In this document: positions 7,210 through 53,589 of the stretch, one piece after another | Layout of the letters: every line of letters starts with the position of its first letter | Numbering within the stretch: the stretch's first letter is position 1 | Source: Rhodopseudomonas boonkerdii | GTDB taxonomy: Bacteria > Pseudomonadota > Alphaproteobacteria > Rhizobiales > Xanthobacteraceae | DNA: 64,000 bases | Direction: 5' to 3' | Assembly: GCF_021184025.1 (NCBI RefSeq) | Contig: NZ_CP036537.1 | Coordinates: 434,001 to 498,000 of the forward strand | Notes under the pieces: model-generated | What the model was told of the DNA's origin: nothing | Seen by the model: only the letters and a program-made list of their open reading frames with translations | Databases searched by the model: none | Translations under genes and position numbers: made by a program

Positions 7210-8439
7210 TCAATCCGTCATCGCCATCGCGCGCAGGGCCTGGCGCTCGCGGGCCGAAAGCTTCTCCGTTTCCGACTTCAGCTGCCCGCAGGCTGCGAGA
7301 ATGTCGCGGCCGCGCGGCGTGCGCACCGGCGAAGAATAGCCGGCATTGAAGATGTATTCGGAGAATTTCTCGATCTGCGCCCAGTCCGAGCACTCGTAGC
7401 GCGTGCCCGGCCACGGATTGAACGGGATCAGGTTGATCTTGGCGTGGATGCCCTTGAGCATCTTCACCAGCAGCTTGGCGTCGTCGAGCGAGTCGTTGAC
7501 GCCCTTCAGCATCACATATTCGAAGGTGATGCGGCGCGCGTTGGAGGCGCCGGGATAATCGCGGCACGCCTGCAGCAGTTCTTTCAACGGATATTTCTTG
7601 TTGAGTGGCACCAGCTCGTTGCGCAGCTCGTCGCGCACCGCATGCAGCGAGATCGCCAGCATCACGCCGATCTCATCGCCCGTGCGTGCGATGTTCGGCA
7701 CCACGCCCGAGGTCGACAGCGTGATGCGCCGGCGCGAAATGCCGATGCCTTCATTGTCCGAGACGATCAGCAACGCGTCGCGCACGGCCTCGAAATTGTA
7801 GAGCGGTTCGCCCATGCCCATCATCACGATATTGGTGATGCGGCGGTTGGTACCGGGCTGGTCGCGGTCGGCCCAGTCGTTCAGCCGGTCGCGTGCCACC
7901 ATGATCTGGCCGACGATCTCGCCCGGCGTCAGGTTGCGTACCAGACGCTGGGTTCCCGTATGGCAGAACGAGCAGTTCAGCGTGCAGCCGACCTGCGAGG
8001 AGACGCAGAGCGTGCCGCGGTCGGTCTCGGGGATATAGACGCACTCGACCTCATGGGCGCGCTCGCCATGGGTGCCGGAGGGCAGCTTCAGCAGCCATTT
8101 GCGGGTGCCGTCATTGGAAATCTGCTCGACGGCCACTTCCGGCCGGTCGACCGTGAAATGCTGTTCCAGTTCCGTGCGCATGTCTTTGGAAATACTGGAC
8201 ATTTCCGCAAAGCTCTGAGCTCCGCGATAATACAGCCAGTGCCAGATCTGCTGGCTGCGCATCTTCTGCTGGGCCGGCTTCACGCCGATGGAACCAAGCT
8301 TCTCGGCGATCTGGGCCCGGGACAGGCCGATCAGCGACGGCTTTGCCAGCGGCACGTAGGTTTCCGTCGCCACTTTCTCCAAGGGGAGCGAGCGGGCAGT
8401 CTCAACGGCAGCGGCAGCCTCGGCAGAAGCGGGGGTCAT
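7210..8439 (-). CDS. rlmN: 23S rRNA (adenine-2503-C2)-methyltransferase, dual-specificity RlmN
   Basis: The 409-residue protein is a radical SAM enzyme with the CTLNCSFC cluster motif (CxxxCxxC) and the downstream MGMGEPL segment. The ISLHA and KGVND blocks of RlmN are also present. The family methylates A2503 of 23S rRNA, and A37 of some tRNAs, through a methylated Cys near the C-terminus. Length and motif order are typical. It is flanked on both sides by family A repeats, so it is probably transcribed alone. Confidence 0.96.
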
Positions 8440-46989: not shown

Positions 46990-47095
46990 GCGCCGCGGCT
47001 GCGCACGTCATCACCTGAAGCGCGCCGGCGTCGCCGCATGTGCAACCATTCGGTTCCATGCGCGTTGTCGCCCGGTTCACACGTTCAGGAACAAC

Positions 47096-48208
47096 ATGGC
47101 TGAAGACATAACGACGCCGATCGGCATCGGCGTGCACGGCGCGAGACGTCTGCCATCGGTGGATGTCGATACTTTCAATATCGAGATCAAGGATGGGGAC
47201 GGCTTTCTCGGCGATCGTGCCAGCAAGCGTGCGTTCCAGGAAATCATCGATGAGTTGCGCAAGCCGCTGAAGAAAAGCGGCGATGATCCGCTCGGCAAGA
47301 AGCGGGTGAAGGACATTCGGAAGTCCACATTCGACGAGCTTCTGGTCGGCGACGACGTGGCGGCGGCGGCGCTGGTGCACGGCGCCATCGAGGAATTCGC
47401 GCGGGAATTCGCCTACGTGATCCAGCGCTTTTTCAAGAACAAGGCATGGGAAGACACCGAATGCATCGTGGTCGGCGGCGGCTTTCGCCAGAGCAGGGTC
47501 GGCGAACTCGCGATCGCCCGCACCGGCCTAATTCTCAAGGCTGAAGGGCTCAAGGTGGACCTCGTCCCGATTCAGTATCACCCGGACGAGGCCGGCCTGA
47601 TCGGCTGCCTGCATCTCGCGCCGTCCTGGATCTTCGAAGGCTATGACAGCATTCTCGCCGTCGATATCGGCGGCTCCAACATCCGCTGCGGGGTGGTGGA
47701 GACGGGCTGGAAGAAATCGAAGGATCTGTCCAGGGCCTCGGTGTGGCAAGTCGATCTCTGGAAACATACGGATGACGAACCGACCCGCGAGGGCGCGGTG
47801 AAGCGGCTCATCAAGATGCTGCAGGATCTGATCGGCGCGGCGGAAAAGGAGGGCTTCAGGCTGGCACCGTTCATCGGCATTTCCTGTCCCGGCGTCATCA
47901 ATGAGGACGGCACCATCGAGAAGGGCGCACAGAATCTGCCGGGCAACTGGGAGAGCAGCAAGTTCAACCTGCCGGCGCTGCTGGCCGAAGGCATCCCGAC
48001 CATCGGCGATCACGACACCGCGGTGCTGATGCATAATGACGGAGTGGCACAGGGGTTGAGCGAGGTCCCGTTCATGCAGGATTTCGATCACTGGGGCGTG
48101 TTGACCATCGGCACCGGCCTTGGCAATGCCCGCTTCACCAACCGCAAGCGGGAAGCCAGGAAGGAGAAGAACGGGAAAGACCCGAAAGGCCGGACCGCGA
48201 AGGAGTGA
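47096..48208 (+). CDS. ROK-family-like protein with apparently swapped ATPase lobes
   Basis: The 370-residue protein carries ROK/sugar-kinase motifs in unusual order. Residues 90-175 resemble the C-terminal half of ROK proteins (a long helix, IVVGGG at 124-129, then AGLIG at 166-170). Residues 186-345 hold the N-terminal half: VDIGGSNIRCGVV (phosphate loop), GISCPGVINEDG, GDHDTAV with the catalytic-type Asp, and TIGTGLGN. The protein then ends in a Lys-rich tail. The zinc motif CxCGxxGC of ROK kinases is absent. I infer a circular permutation. Substrate and function are unknown. An AGGAA site precedes the ATG. Confidence 0.75.
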   Translation: MAEDITTPIGIGVHGARRLPSVDVDTFNIEIKDGDGFLGDRASKRAFQEIIDELRKPLKKSGDDPLGKKRVKDIRKSTFDELLVGDDVAAAALVHGAIEEFAREFAYVIQRFFKNKAWEDTECIVVGGGFRQSRVGELAIARTGLILKAEGLKVDLVPIQYHPDEAGLIGCLHLAPSWIFEGYDSILAVDIGGSNIRCGVVETGWKKSKDLSRASVWQVDLWKHTDDEPTREGAVKRLIKMLQDLIGAAEKEGFRLAPFIGISCPGVINEDGTIEKGAQNLPGNWESSKFNLPALLAEGIPTIGDHDTAVLMHNDGVAQGLSEVPFMQDFDHWGVLTIGTGLGNARFTNRKREARKEKNGKDPKGRTAKE

Positions 48209-48509: not shown

Positions 48510-48601
<92 letters not shown>

Positions 48602-48688
48602 CGGCCGTTTGGGCCCCTGAAAATCCAATTTTATCTATAGAATAAGGCATTTCTAAAAAGGCCGGTGGTACACAGGAGTGGACACACC

Positions 48689-50281
48689 GTGAGCCTCAAC
48701 ATGCTTCAACCCATCAAAAAAGACCACACGAAGAACTACTGGTTTCGTCGGCGTGTGCCGGCGAAATACCGCAAGTTCGGCATGCCGTCGGAGATCAAGT
48801 TCTCGCTCGGAACCGCAGATTGGGACGAGGCGGTGCTGCGCTGCCAGGAAGAGAATCTGAAGCTGGAGCGCACCTGGCGCGCCAATCTCGAAGGCGAGCC
48901 GCCCTCGGACCTTTCGCACATGCAGATCAACGCGCTCGCAGGCGAGTTCTACAACGAGATGGTGGCGAGCCATCGCGACGAGCCTGGCCGTCCCATCCTT
49001 TGGGAAGAATCGCTGCGCGCGCTGGAGAAGAAGAAGACGCGGCTGATCAGCATCCAACCGGTCGGCGTGCACCTGCGCTTCGCGTTCGGCGACGAAGCGC
49101 GCGAGTTCCTGGCCCGTCGGCGCCTGAAACTGGTCGGTGACAGATTCGAAACCTTCATCAAGGCGTACGTCAAGGCTAAGGAGCATGCGAGCAGGGTGCT
49201 GCTTCGCCACGCGGAGGGCGATTACACCCCCGATCCGGAGCAGGCGAAATATCCCGCGCTCCAGTTGACCGAGCCGAAGAAGCCCTTCGAGGGCCTGTGG
49301 ACCGAATTCTGCGAGGCGAAGAAGATTTCAGCGTCGACCAAGAAGAAATGGCGTCCGTATTTCTCGGCGTTGATGCTTCGGGTCGGGTCGAGCGACATGA
49401 ACCTCGTCACCGAGCAGCATCTGCTGGATTGGCGGGACGCGCTGCTGGCGACGAAGCTGTCACCCATCACCGTCAAGGACGGTTACATCGCCGCCGCGAA
49501 GGCCTTCTTCGGCTGGTGCAAGCGGATGAAGAAGCTGCGAAGCGACCCGAGCGCGGAAGTCGTCGTCGACGTCAGCGAAAAGCATGAGACCAAGATGCGC
49601 GGTTTCACGGACAAGGAAGCCGCGATCATCCTGTCCGCCGCGTTGGCTCCTATGAGCAAGCTGATGGCGCGGGAGAATGCCGCGGCGCGCCGGTGGGTGC
49701 CGTGGATCTGCGCCTATACCGGAGCCCGCGTCAACGAGATCACGCAGCTTCGGGCCAGCGACGTCCTGAACGTGGACGGCATCGATTGCATCCGCATAAC
49801 GCCCGAGGCCGGAACCGTGAAGACGCTGCGGGAGCGCGTCGTTCCGATCCATCCGCATCTGGTCGAGCAAGGATTTCTCGACTTCGCTCGGATGAAGAAG
49901 GGCAAGGCGCCGCTGTTCTATTCCGTCGCGCGGCAGCGCAACCCGGACCGGAAGAATCCGACCTACACGTCGGTCGGCAACAAATTGGCCGAGTGGGTTC
50001 GTGAACTCGGCATCAAGGACCCACGGGTCGCGCCGAACCATGGTTGGCGCCATCGCTTCAAGACCGCGGGCCGCAAGGCGAGGATGGACTGGCTGATCCT
50101 CGACGCCATCCAGGGGCACGCGCCCCGCACCGAGGGCGAGGAGTATGGCGAAGTGCCGCCGGACGTCATGCAGCCAGAGATCCTGAAGCATCCGAGATAC
50201 GATGTTGCTGCCGGAAAACTCCGCGACCGGCGAGGCGATGCGAACAGGAGCCGTGCCGGGAAAAGGAAGGAGCCGGCGTGA
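48689..50281 (+). CDS. Tyrosine recombinase (phage-type integrase)
   Basis: GTG at 48689 is preferred as start because CAGGAG lies 10 bases upstream; GTG at 48665 and ATG at 48701 are alternatives. The product has about 530 residues. An N-terminal region (WFRRRVPAKYRK) and a SAM-like core-binding domain precede the catalytic domain with YTGARVNEI (Arg), HGWRHRF (His-Arg), GHAP (His) and a likely nucleophile Tyr in EEYGE. It probably integrates and excises the element at tRNA-Ser. Confidence 0.93.
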   Translation: MSLNMLQPIKKDHTKNYWFRRRVPAKYRKFGMPSEIKFSLGTADWDEAVLRCQEENLKLERTWRANLEGEPPSDLSHMQINALAGEFYNEMVASHRDEPGRPILWEESLRALEKKKTRLISIQPVGVHLRFAFGDEAREFLARRRLKLVGDRFETFIKAYVKAKEHASRVLLRHAEGDYTPDPEQAKYPALQLTEPKKPFEGLWTEFCEAKKISASTKKKWRPYFSALMLRVGSSDMNLVTEQHLLDWRDALLATKLSPITVKDGYIAAAKAFFGWCKRMKKLRSDPSAEVVVDVSEKHETKMRGFTDKEAAIILSAALAPMSKLMARENAAARRWVPWICAYTGARVNEITQLRASDVLNVDGIDCIRITPEAGTVKTLRERVVPIHPHLVEQGFLDFARMKKGKAPLFYSVARQRNPDRKNPTYTSVGNKLAEWVRELGIKDPRVAPNHGWRHRFKTAGRKARMDWLILDAIQGHAPRTEGEEYGEVPPDVMQPEILKHPRYDVAAGKLRDRRGDANRSRAGKRKEPA

Positions 50282-50464
50282 CCGCCCACTTTGCGGGTTG
50301 AGAACGGCCGAGGCGATCGTCGGACGACTTATCCGACGGATCCGATCCGCCAAGCCTCGCGTCCTGAGTGGCCCGCCGCCGACCGTCGGGCCGAGTGATA
50401 CCCGCCTGATCACGCCGTCATTGTGTTATGCAGTCAAAGGCCCGATATTGGGGGCGGAGAACGC

Positions 50465-50797
50465 ATGGATAAGGTCGTCACCATAGCAGAGAGGGACGCG
50501 CGCGAAGCAGCGCGGCGACGATCGGCTGCGGACGCGATCATCGCGAAACTGAAGGCATTTGCGATTTCGCGCGGCGGCCGGTTCCTTGTGTTCGGATCGG
50601 CGGCGGTGGATGCCATGTCGTCCGAGAGCGATCTGGATGTCGTCGTCGATTTTCCATCGGATCGCGAAGGCGAAGCCGTCGACTTCGTTGAAGACTTGTC
50701 ACGAATTCACGACCTGCCTGTCGATTATTACTTGAGATCGTTGGCAAGCGAGCGGTTCCTCGCCCGGATAGCGAATGAAGCGGTGACGCTGTCATGA
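50465..50797 (+). CDS. MNT-type nucleotidyltransferase (putative antitoxin)
   Basis: The 110-residue protein has the minimal nucleotidyltransferase signature FGSAAVDAMSSESDLDVVVD (Gly44-Ser45, Asp56, Asp58). A GGAG site precedes the ATG. MNT proteins often pair with HEPN proteins, and in several such pairs the MNT partner modifies the HEPN toxin. Its stop codon overlaps the start of the next gene by 4 bases, so the two form an operon next to the Qat defence genes. Confidence 0.85.
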   Translation: MDKVVTIAERDAREAARRRSAADAIIAKLKAFAISRGGRFLVFGSAAVDAMSSESDLDVVVDFPSDREGEAVDFVEDLSRIHDLPVDYYLRSLASERFLARIANEAVTLS

Positions 50798-51324
50798 GCG
50801 ACCCGCGTTGGACGGATGTCGATGCTGATATCGACCATGCCATTCTGCAGATCGGAAACGCCGTTCGCGCGTTCGACCGCGGAGGCTTCGATTCTCCGGA
50901 CCTCGACGCGGTATGGGAACGGTCCAATGCGTTTCTCCATGGGATGGAGACCGGGTATTCGCTGCTGGAAGCCGCATTGGAGAAGATCCTTTCCATTTTG
51001 AAGGAAAAGAGCCCGGTCGAGGGGCAGCACTCGCACAGGGATCTCGTCGAGCGGGTCTCAAGGCAGATGACCGGCGTTAACGCGAGGCCTGCGATCATCG
51101 ACGCAGATCTCAAGAAGGACTTGCTCGAACTTTTGAGGATGCGCCATAGGGCTCGGAAGGTCATCTACGACGACTTCGACGCGTCGAAGGCGGGGCCTTC
51201 GGTCGAGGCCGCGCGACGGGTCCTGATCGGGCTCCGGGACGCGATCGCTGCGTTCAAGGCTGCGGTGGATCCGGAGCCTGGCGAGGACGACGAAAATTCC
51301 GCGTCGTCACGGCCTCGCATCTGA
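50794..51324 (+). CDS. HEPN/HepT-like helical protein (partner of the MNT protein)
   Basis: The 176-residue all-helical protein (GYSLLEAALEKILSILKE) resembles HepT-like toxins encoded after MNT genes. The expected RNase motif RX4-6H near the C-terminal helix is not intact: the region reads LLRMRHRARKVIYDD, with a Lys where the second catalytic His is expected. It may be inactive, divergent, or use a different site. The assignment rests on gene order plus fold-like pattern. Confidence 0.65.
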   Translation: MSDPRWTDVDADIDHAILQIGNAVRAFDRGGFDSPDLDAVWERSNAFLHGMETGYSLLEAALEKILSILKEKSPVEGQHSHRDLVERVSRQMTGVNARPAIIDADLKKDLLELLRMRHRARKVIYDDFDASKAGPSVEAARRVLIGLRDAIAAFKAAVDPEPGEDDENSASSRPRI

Positions 51325-51720
51325 CGCCAGCCATATCGCGCCGAAGTCGGCTTCCGATATGCACTGGACCTGGTACGGCGATGGCGCGGTACCATTTCGT
51401 CGCACACCGAAAATATCGCGTCGTTTTCCGATTGTGCGACCAGCCCATGAGCGTCGGCAGGGAGCGAGGCATTCACATCCTCTGCCGTTTGGATCCGGAT
51501 AGGCATCGCCACCGCGAGGTCTACAGTTCGAAGCATCAGGCGGTCCGACGTTGTTCATGCGATGCGTACGGCATCATCGGCCCGTTTCTTCGCTGCCGGC
51601 GAACAAGGCGCCGGCCCCGTACCGATCCTCCCAAGCAGAATCCGACTTCGCTCGGCCATTGCAAAGATGGGAGGCAGTCAGCTATCGGTTGTGTGGGGGA
51701 TCGGCGGGGGCGAGCTTTTC
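51325..51720. other. Noncoding gap upstream of the Qat operon
   Basis: This 396-base stretch holds no convincing gene. Short open frames on both strands lack coding character and ribosome binding sites. It should contain the Qat promoter, but no clear consensus boxes are visible. Confidence 0.5.
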
Positions 51721-53589
51721 ATGTGGCATGACAACGAGACGGAGCGCGACTTCCTGAATTTTTCGGGCGTCGCGGACACCGTGGCCGAGATCGTCGTGCA
51801 GGCGCGAGGGCGCCCGGTCTCGATCGGGGTGTCCGGTTCGTGGGGTATCGGCAAGTCGTCGATGATCAAGCTCATCCGGGCGTCCGTCGCCGCGCGCCCC
51901 CTCCCTGCCGGCGAGCGGCAGTTCGTCTTCGTCGAATTCAATGCTTGGCTGTATCAGGGCTACGACGATGCGCGGGCGGCGCTGATGGACGTCATCGCTT
52001 CGAAGCTGGAGGCGGAGGCGGCCGCGCGCGCGACCGCCGTCGACAAGACGAAGGCGTTGCTGAAGCGCGTCAACTGGCTACGGGCCGCCAAACTCGTCGC
52101 CGTGCCTGCGATCTCGCTCGCGCTCGGCCTGCCGCCGACGGGCCTGGTCGGCGACGTGATCGGCCTCGGCCGTCGGGCCTTCGACGAAGGCCTCGGCGGC
52201 AACCTAGCCAAGGATGCCGAAGCCGCGGCGGGCAAGGTCGCGGACGCTGCAGGCGGACTCCTGGATCCGAAGCCCGACGAGTCGCCGCCGAAACAGATCC
52301 AGGCTCTCCGGGATTCGTTCGAGGACATCCTCGAGGAGTTGGGGATCACGCTGGTGGTCCTGATCGACGATCTCGACCGCTGTCTTCCGGAGACCACGAT
52401 CTCGACCCTCGAGGCCATCCGTCTCTTCCTGTTCCTGAAGAACACCGCTTTCGTCATCGCCGCCGACAACGACATGATCAAGCACGCGGTCCGCAAGCAT
52501 TTCGGCGGCATCCAAGACGATCTGTTGGTCACCAACTATTTCGACAAGCTGATCCAGGTACCGATTCGGGTCCCGCCGCTCGGAACGCAGGAAGTGCGCG
52601 CGTACATGATGTTGCTGTTCGTGGAGAACAGCGTCCTGGACGGTGAGATCCAGGAGAAGATCCGCGTCGGCATCTGCAATCAGCTTCGCCGGACGTGGGA
52701 AGGCAAGCGCGTCGACCGGGCGTTCGTCCAGACGCTTCATGATCCGATGCCGGACGAACTGATCGGCAAGTTCGATACCGCGGACCGCCTCGCCCCGTTG
52801 ATGACGACCGCGTCCGGCATCGCCGGCAATCCCCGTTTAATCAAAAGATTCCTGAATGCGCTGTCCATACGGATGTCGATCTCGACCGCTCAAGGCGTCG
52901 GTGTCGACGAAGCTGTGCTTGCCAAGCTCATGCTGTTCGAACGTCTAGGGGACACGAAGGCCTATGCTTCGTTGATCTCCGCGGTCGGTGCCAGCGAGTC
53001 CGGGAAACCCGCGTTCCTCGGCGAGTGGGAGGAAGCCGCAAATGCGGGCAAGGAGCTCGATCTCCCGTCCCCGTGGAACGCTCCGTTCGTGCGGGAGTGG
53101 CTGACGTTGCCGCCGGCCCTCGCGGAGGTCGACCTCAGAGGCGCGTTATACGTCAGCCGCGAGCATGTCGCGCTGGTCACTTCCGAGGATCGCCTGTCGT
53201 CAGAGGCCGCGGAACTGTTGACCGCTCTGCTGCAGAATCCGGAGATGGCGGCGCGCCTCAAACCGCGGCTGCAGACGGTGCAGCGGCTCGAGACGGCCGT
53301 GATCATGGATCGTCTGCTGGAGAAGGCACGGCAGGAGCAGGAATGGGGCGTGCCGCCGATACTGGAGGCCTGCCTGGCCTTGTCGGAGGTGGATCCGCCT
53401 CAGGGCAGTCGTCTCGCGGCCTTTCTCGCCGAGCGGCCGGCCGCGCAGGTCAAACCCAACATCGTACCGAAGATCGCCGATCAGCCCTGGGCTCGAGGTG
53501 TGCTGGAGAAGTGGGACGGTCTTGACGTGTCGAGGCCGGTCAAGACCGCAATCAAGAGAACGTTTGAAAATGGGAACGTCGCAATCTAG
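51721..53589 (+). CDS. qatA: QatA, KAP-family P-loop ATPase
   Basis: The start at 51721 gives 622 residues and matches the family N-terminus (DFLNFSGVADTVAEIV). Walker A is GVSGSWGIGKSS (36-47) and Walker B LVVLIDDLDR (211-220), with a hydrophobic stretch at about 122-144 between them, as in KAP NTPases. Sensor-like AADN follows. In the Qatuor anti-phage system QatA is the ATPase component. It is the first of four overlapping genes. Earlier in-frame starts exist without better ribosome binding sites. Confidence 0.9.
   Translation: MWHDNETERDFLNFSGVADTVAEIVVQARGRPVSIGVSGSWGIGKSSMIKLIRASVAARPLPAGERQFVFVEFNAWLYQGYDDARAALMDVIASKLEAEAAARATAVDKTKALLKRVNWLRAAKLVAVPAISLALGLPPTGLVGDVIGLGRRAFDEGLGGNLAKDAEAAAGKVADAAGGLLDPKPDESPPKQIQALRDSFEDILEELGITLVVLIDDLDRCLPETTISTLEAIRLFLFLKNTAFVIAADNDMIKHAVRKHFGGIQDDLLVTNYFDKLIQVPIRVPPLGTQEVRAYMMLLFVENSVLDGEIQEKIRVGICNQLRRTWEGKRVDRAFVQTLHDPMPDELIGKFDTADRLAPLMTTASGIAGNPRLIKRFLNALSIRMSISTAQGVGVDEAVLAKLMLFERLGDTKAYASLISAVGASESGKPAFLGEWEEAANAGKELDLPSPWNAPFVREWLTLPPALAEVDLRGALYVSREHVALVTSEDRLSSEAAELLTALLQNPEMAARLKPRLQTVQRLETAVIMDRLLEKARQEQEWGVPPILEACLALSEVDPPQGSRLAAFLAERPAAQVKPNIVPKIADQPWARGVLEKWDGLDVSRPVKTAIKRTFENGNVAI

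Follow-up and report, generated by a model that had tools for sequence, protein, structure and literature searches.

How a protein that carries the segments of a ROK-type sugar kinase comes to have them in an exchanged order is the question raised by an open reading frame (ORF) of Rhodopseudomonas boonkerdii, located at 47096..48208 in the window, i.e., the whole stretch of 64,000 nucleotides analyzed here (contig NZ_CP036537.1, positions 434,001 to 498,000). The first-pass annotation of this DNA had read VVGGG and AGLIG ahead of DIGGSN, ISCPGV, GDHDTAV and TIGTGLGN and had ascribed this to an exchange of the two lobes by circular permutation, adding that the zinc motif is missing and that the protein ends soon after TIGTGLGN. 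All of these segments were found in that order, with VVGGG at residues 125-129, ISCPGV at 262-267, GDHDTAV at 304-310 and TIGTGLGN at 337-344, after which 26 residues remain. Profile comparisons and structure models show the predicted product to be a ROK-derived chain with a circular permutation, both halves being in the order predicted for such an event. The elements of the ORF are the following:

47096..48208, + strand: ORF of the permuted ROK-type protein, 370 amino acids, coordinates including the stop
47135..47155, + strand: HGARRLP, residues 14-20, aligned with the ROK ExGH region, the E and H of ExGH being lost
47156..47635, + strand: residues 21-180, equivalent to the ROK C-terminal half (profiles and structure, each covering part)
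47201..47224, + strand: GFLGDRAS, residues 36-43, proposed site of ROK GC(L/I)E, placed by eye from the alignment, with no zinc cysteines
47474..47482, + strand: GGG, residues 127-129, invariant
47591..47605, + strand: AGLIG, residues 166-170, near the C-terminus in ordinary ROK proteins (profile alignment)
47639..48145, + strand: residues 182-350, equivalent to the ROK N-terminal half (Pfam, hhalign, structure)
47663..47680, + strand: DIGGSN, residues 190-195, phosphate-1 loop (family alignment)
48032..48043, + strand: HNDG, residues 313-316, with D315 as equivalent of the catalytic aspartate; H, N and D in 69/69 rows, aligned to ROK NDA
48110..48130, + strand: GTGLGNA, residues 339-345, phosphate-2 loop, now C-terminal (family alignment)
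48146..48205, + strand: lysine/arginine-rich tail, residues 351-370, of low model confidence and with a length that varies among members

An alignment of 69 family members was compared by hhalign with 39 canonical ROK proteins, namely those that passed a motif and length filter among 64 loci inspected. In native order two local matches were obtained, of residues 73-179 to ROK positions 203-302 (E 1.2e-5) and of residues 188-345 to ROK positions 6-139 (E 2.9e-5). Re-cutting at 182 gave a single match of 285-287 columns (probability 96.6, E 5.2e-10), and the doubled family profile a single match running from 188 through the junction (E 3.5e-9). When 17 cut points were scanned, the best score was found at cuts 150 to 182, ROK 6-302 being fully covered only at 182, and the re-cut profile scored 76 as compared to 11 to 25 for 20 column-shuffled controls. 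Furthermore, residues 103-175 matched positions 215-286 of 288 of the NCBIfam NanK model, residues 187-349 the N-terminal part of the polyphosphate glucokinase model (NF045942), and residues 187-350 the Pfam ROK profile PF00480 at positions 2-142 of 294 only (24.2 bits, cut-off 22.9). In hhalign and NCBIfam, the two halves matched ROK C-terminal and then N-terminal regions, as had been expected of a permuted chain.

Structural comparison of both halves with ROK proteins agrees with the permutation. Residues 182-350 superposed on the N-terminal halves of ROK structures and residues 1-181, modelled alone, more weakly on the C-terminal halves. As structure aligners keep to the order of the chain and return each half separately, the missing full-length match to a ROK structure is no evidence. 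When the family profile was searched against PDB sequences, most of the matches fell in the C-half, the earliest starting at profile position 161. The evidence for the N-half is the weaker: the structural match of residues 1-181 is of modest Z, the N-half model had no Foldseek match at E 0.001, and the N-half of the window protein alone had no Pfam match. Against the permutation, re-cutting the single sequence left the Pfam score unimproved (24.1 vs. 24.2 bits), and a profile hidden Markov model of 18 canonical ROK proteins gave the native sequence 12.3 bits, its re-cut version 12.7 and its doubled version 20.0, which is weak and hardly informative. Such single-sequence and narrow-set tests are weak, and at the level of sequence it is the comparison of profile with profile that is decisive.

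With regard to the site of the cut, the permutation itself stands, but not the view that the two lobes were exchanged as such: the cut would lie inside the large lobe, in the hairpin following GTGxG, and not at the lobe boundary. In Fusobacterium NanK, domain 1 comprises residues 1-118 and 272 to the end and domain 2 residues 126-268 (excerpts of PMC5458393). Because the permuted chain begins just before the ExGH equivalent and ends after GTGLGNA, its new termini are assigned to the beta-hairpin after the GTGxG strand and, as mapped through the alignments, would sit inside the large lobe. This would make the small lobe, which is discontinuous in ROK proteins, a continuous one and interrupt the large lobe. 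According to profile comparison and model, the old ROK termini are joined between AGLIG and DIGG.

The arrangement is not confined to the window. Among 360 homologues, which are best hits from searches and hence biased toward the permuted family, GGG precedes D(I/L/M/V)GG(T/S)N in 343 and the reverse order occurs in none, 17 being unassigned by the patterns; because the order recurs to this extent, it is neither chance nor an assembly error. The early end of the chain is likewise shared, GTGLGN being followed by a short tail in 359 of the 360 (median 12 residues, outer deciles 6 and 32), and LPxV starts 18 to 34 residues from the N-terminus (outer deciles). These shared distances point to one common breakpoint and are consistent with a single origin. 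Invariant in all 69 aligned members are G39, D40, W118, GGG 127-129, D190, GG 192-193, R197, W222, R231, PG 265-266, N280, W285, F290, HND 313-315, Q319, S322, W333, GTG 339-341 and NA 344-345. In the DxGxT motif, D190, G192 and G193 are thus fixed and position 194 is T in 46, S in 21 and K in 2 members. GDHDTAV, previously taken as the NDAN equivalent, proved variable, whereas the HND that follows is invariant, and HNDG is therefore assigned this role. The cysteine zinc motif is indeed absent from the ORF, and C.CG was found in none of the 360 homologues. In addition to this loss, ExGH, which the first-pass annotation had not listed as lost, is not kept either: the aligned segment is xHGA, and an E.GH pattern occurs anywhere in only 2/360 homologues. 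Therefore, the nucleotide side and the catalytic aspartate are kept and the hexose side is not, and since ExGH, zinc motif and segment order all fail, we name the group a permuted ROK-derived clade and not a standard ROK kinase.

Upstream of the ORF lies the following element:

47041..47068, + strand: promoter-like block TGCAACCATTCGGTTCCATGCGCGTTGT, GCAAC-N16-CGTT overlapping AACC-N4-GGTT

GGAAC-N16-CGTT is the EcfG motif of Rhizobium etli (excerpts of PMC3892343), and the GCAAC-N16-CGTT of the window shows one mismatch to this consensus. The block is the sole site of the searched pattern in the genome at up to 3 mismatches, and the longer block is therefore not simply the general EcfG motif. 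Two sets of upstream regions were compared: a close set of 82 (L001-L080 without L006, plus the window, L146 and L147, L146 probably being the same locus as L004) and a distant set of 25 of the loci L148-L176, including L148 and L166 of the window's own family; L006, L154, L155, L169 and L171 were left out because no start was recognized by the motif pattern or too little sequence was available. Exact GGAAC-N16/17-CGTT was present in 13/25 distant loci (11/23 without L148 and L166), as compared to a mean of 0.16 in same-locus control windows, and in 0/82 close loci. The relaxed GNAAC-N16/17-CGTT was found in 59/82 close loci (control 0.44), and the overlapping GNAACCA..GGTTCC block in 69/82 close (control 0) and 0/25 distant loci. 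AACC-N4-GGTT within the EcfG-like promoter is a possible operator.

In the close set the usual divergent neighbour of the permuted gene is an rplU-obgE-type cluster, common neighbours being a GNAT-like ORF, rplU and obgE; these were identified by eye and this context is rough only, as automatic ORF choice can be misled by shadow ORFs where the GC content is high. Between the permuted gene and this cluster the window has several others, including those for an aromatic amino acid lyase, a GAF protein and, as judged by eye, a LysR-like regulator. Among 14 hand-picked plasmid regions 11 were annotated, and in these the divergent neighbour was otsB in five (Rhizobium and Shinella) and the M42 peptidase of the NAGGN system in one (S. 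meliloti). Three loci (L148, L154 and L166) have DUF892 genes no more than 2 kb away. No shared pathway operon around the permuted gene was found in the regions examined. Beside the S. meliloti locus (L168) there is, at 7549-8252, a VOC and DUF4287 gene pair, which from gene order appears to correspond to SMb20475-SMb20474, whose expression was up on RpoE10 overexpression (excerpts of PMC6180224).

Full-length permuted members were found in 16/299 phylum genomes and 12/289 class genomes, two samples that overlap by three genomes including that of the window, which holds one copy. Any match was seen in 22 phylum genomes; in the remaining six it was confined to residues 155-351, five of these being proteins of canonical order. 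Relatives in named genomes share up to 90% identity with the product of the ORF. Among the 220 relatives in genome contigs, Tardiphaga, Bradyrhizobium and Afipia are named for the best 80 loci, and 206 plasmid records stem from Rhizobium, Sinorhizobium, Shinella, Phyllobacterium, Ensifer and Methylobacterium, with one record from Roseateles; S. meliloti pSymB and Rhizobium johnstonii pRL10 both carry a member. Further members come from Pseudoxanthomonas, Luteimonas, Lysobacter and Stenotrophomonas as well as Ferrovibrio and Variovorax, and we take these genera to be Alpha-, Beta- and Gammaproteobacteria. In a midpoint-rooted tree of 80 rows, the Variovorax protein grouped with the clade from the Pseudoxanthomonas/Luteimonas/Lysobacter/Stenotrophomonas search, apart from the other rows (support 100). 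A phage search for the family gave no match. The unusual architecture that had been suspected is thus a real permutation, but not a one-off, as the family is widespread in soil and plant-associated bacteria. Two genomes with full copies also hold short additional pieces of the gene (L105, G200:C151:167219-167341; L115, G555:C38:1953-2204), perhaps decayed duplicates.

What might such a protein do? We consider it fairly probable that it is a permuted ROK-derived, stress-induced kinase dependent on adenosine triphosphate (ATP), with a rebuilt substrate pocket. Because the phosphate loops and the aspartate are invariant, ATP-dependent phosphotransfer is expected: closure over ATP and transfer of the gamma-phosphate would be retained, with D315 as base. 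Since the hexose-holding ExGH and zinc elements are gone, the pocket would have been rebuilt for a substrate that is probably a small polyol or a sugar other than the standard hexoses. Promoter motifs and neighbour genes suggest that in many Alphaproteobacteria EcfG-type promoters drive its production under general stress and that it has a role in osmolyte or carbon-reserve metabolism. Whereas the permutation, the existence of a family, the motifs gained and lost and the upstream motif enrichment are shown, phosphotransfer, changed substrate and stress induction are inferred. Going further, we tentatively suggest that a single ancient permutation might have given rise to a separate kinase family of Alpha-, Beta- and Gammaproteobacteria with a non-hexose, stress-related substrate, general-stress control and a new enzyme activity hidden under the annotation 'ROK family protein'.

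It is unlikely that the permuted ROK scaffold no longer phosphorylates and acts as a sensor or assembly factor that binds ATP or a metabolite. ROK repressors are non-catalytic ROK relatives, and the loss of the sugar-holding ExGH and of the zinc site as well as the lack of a shared pathway operon would fit such a role, but D315, GGG and the two phosphate loops are retained in 69/69 members without variation and no DNA-binding domain was detected by Pfam. A polyphosphate-dependent (or polyphosphate/ATP) sugar kinase is quite improbable: the window protein scores 26.1 bits against an NF045942 cut-off of 250, and the GGG motif, which is on the adenosine side, is invariant. For the C-half, nevertheless, the top-ranking family profile is that of a polyphosphate--glucose phosphotransferase, 1woq (polyphosphate/ATP glucomannokinase) is among the profile and structural matches, and NF045942 is the commonest NCBIfam match (53/69 members), although further ROK kinase profiles are hit in almost as many members (49/69 and 42/69). 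Fusion or misassembly of an ordinary ROK fragment with an unrelated N-terminal part, suggested by the recognition of the C-half alone by Pfam, has a negligible probability, as it is contradicted by the hhalign re-cut, the cut-point scan and the shuffled controls, by the match of the N-half to the ROK C-terminal part in profile and, more weakly, structure, and by recurrence of the arrangement in numerous independent genomes and plasmids.

Downstream of the permuted ROK gene, a transfer RNA gene, tRNA-Ser (cga), at 48510-48599 and a tyrosine-integrase gene at 48665-50281 (Phage_integrase, DUF6538) form the predicted edge of an integrated island, which directly follows. The island contains adjacent nucleotidyltransferase-domain and HepT-like genes (50423-51324), presumably a toxin-antitoxin pair, and a KAP-family P-loop NTPase gene of 675 amino acids (51562-53589), which we assume may be a defence gene.

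It is uncommon for an entire kinase fold to be circularly permuted in nature. No description of a permuted ROK family was found among the papers listed in searches of one open-access library, and term look-ups in parts of PMC3616915, PMC6180224, PMC7268258, PMC12696579, PMC3892343, PMC5458393, PMC1079889 and PMC12667903 returned nothing on it, so that the branch is apparently undescribed so far. Its members are annotated as ROK protein, glucokinase, predicted sugar kinase or hypothetical. As a large conserved family it indicates that new termini after GTGxG are compatible with the ROK chain, it allows the purpose of the ExGH and zinc elements to be probed, and it provides, in model rhizobia, an enzyme that can be tested and may be linked to stress. 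Moreover, searches that assume one segment order can miss permuted families: when the own genome was searched with PF00480, no match was obtained, not even to the permuted protein itself, and this is therefore no proof that canonical ROK proteins are absent there.

Compared with known systems, the permuted family has the fold of the ROK sugar kinases (PF00480; e.g., NanK, ROK glucokinase, GNE-type kinase domain), which are its best structural matches, as well as their segments DxGG(T/S), PG, ND, GTGxG, GGG and AGL(I/L)G, but differs in the swapped segment order, in xHGA for ExGH and in the absence of the zinc motif. Excerpts of PMC5458393 give as ROK family traits the DxGxT nucleotide motif, a strictly conserved catalytic aspartate, the sugar-binding ExGH motif and the zinc motif CxCGxxGCx(E/D), although zinc-less ROK proteins exist. 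Fusobacterium NanK likewise is without the cysteine zinc motif but, unlike the permuted family, keeps ExGH and an N-terminal nucleotide-binding region (PMC5458393, same excerpts); in the permuted family the nucleotide-binding motif is not in the N-terminal region, unlike in the canonical ROK order. In the glucomannokinase 1woq, the part that matches the permuted C-half is N-terminal (residues 11-162), and NF045942 is the closest NCBIfam profile for this half, although far below cut-off. The other ASKHA folds MreB, DnaK and hexokinase are without the ROK motifs, and an alignment with them probably pairs exchanged lobes. The circularly permuted GTPases (cpRAS), whose fold is unrelated to that of ROK proteins, likewise have a nucleotide-binding fold that was permuted in nature and is of scattered distribution (excerpts of PMC2430557).
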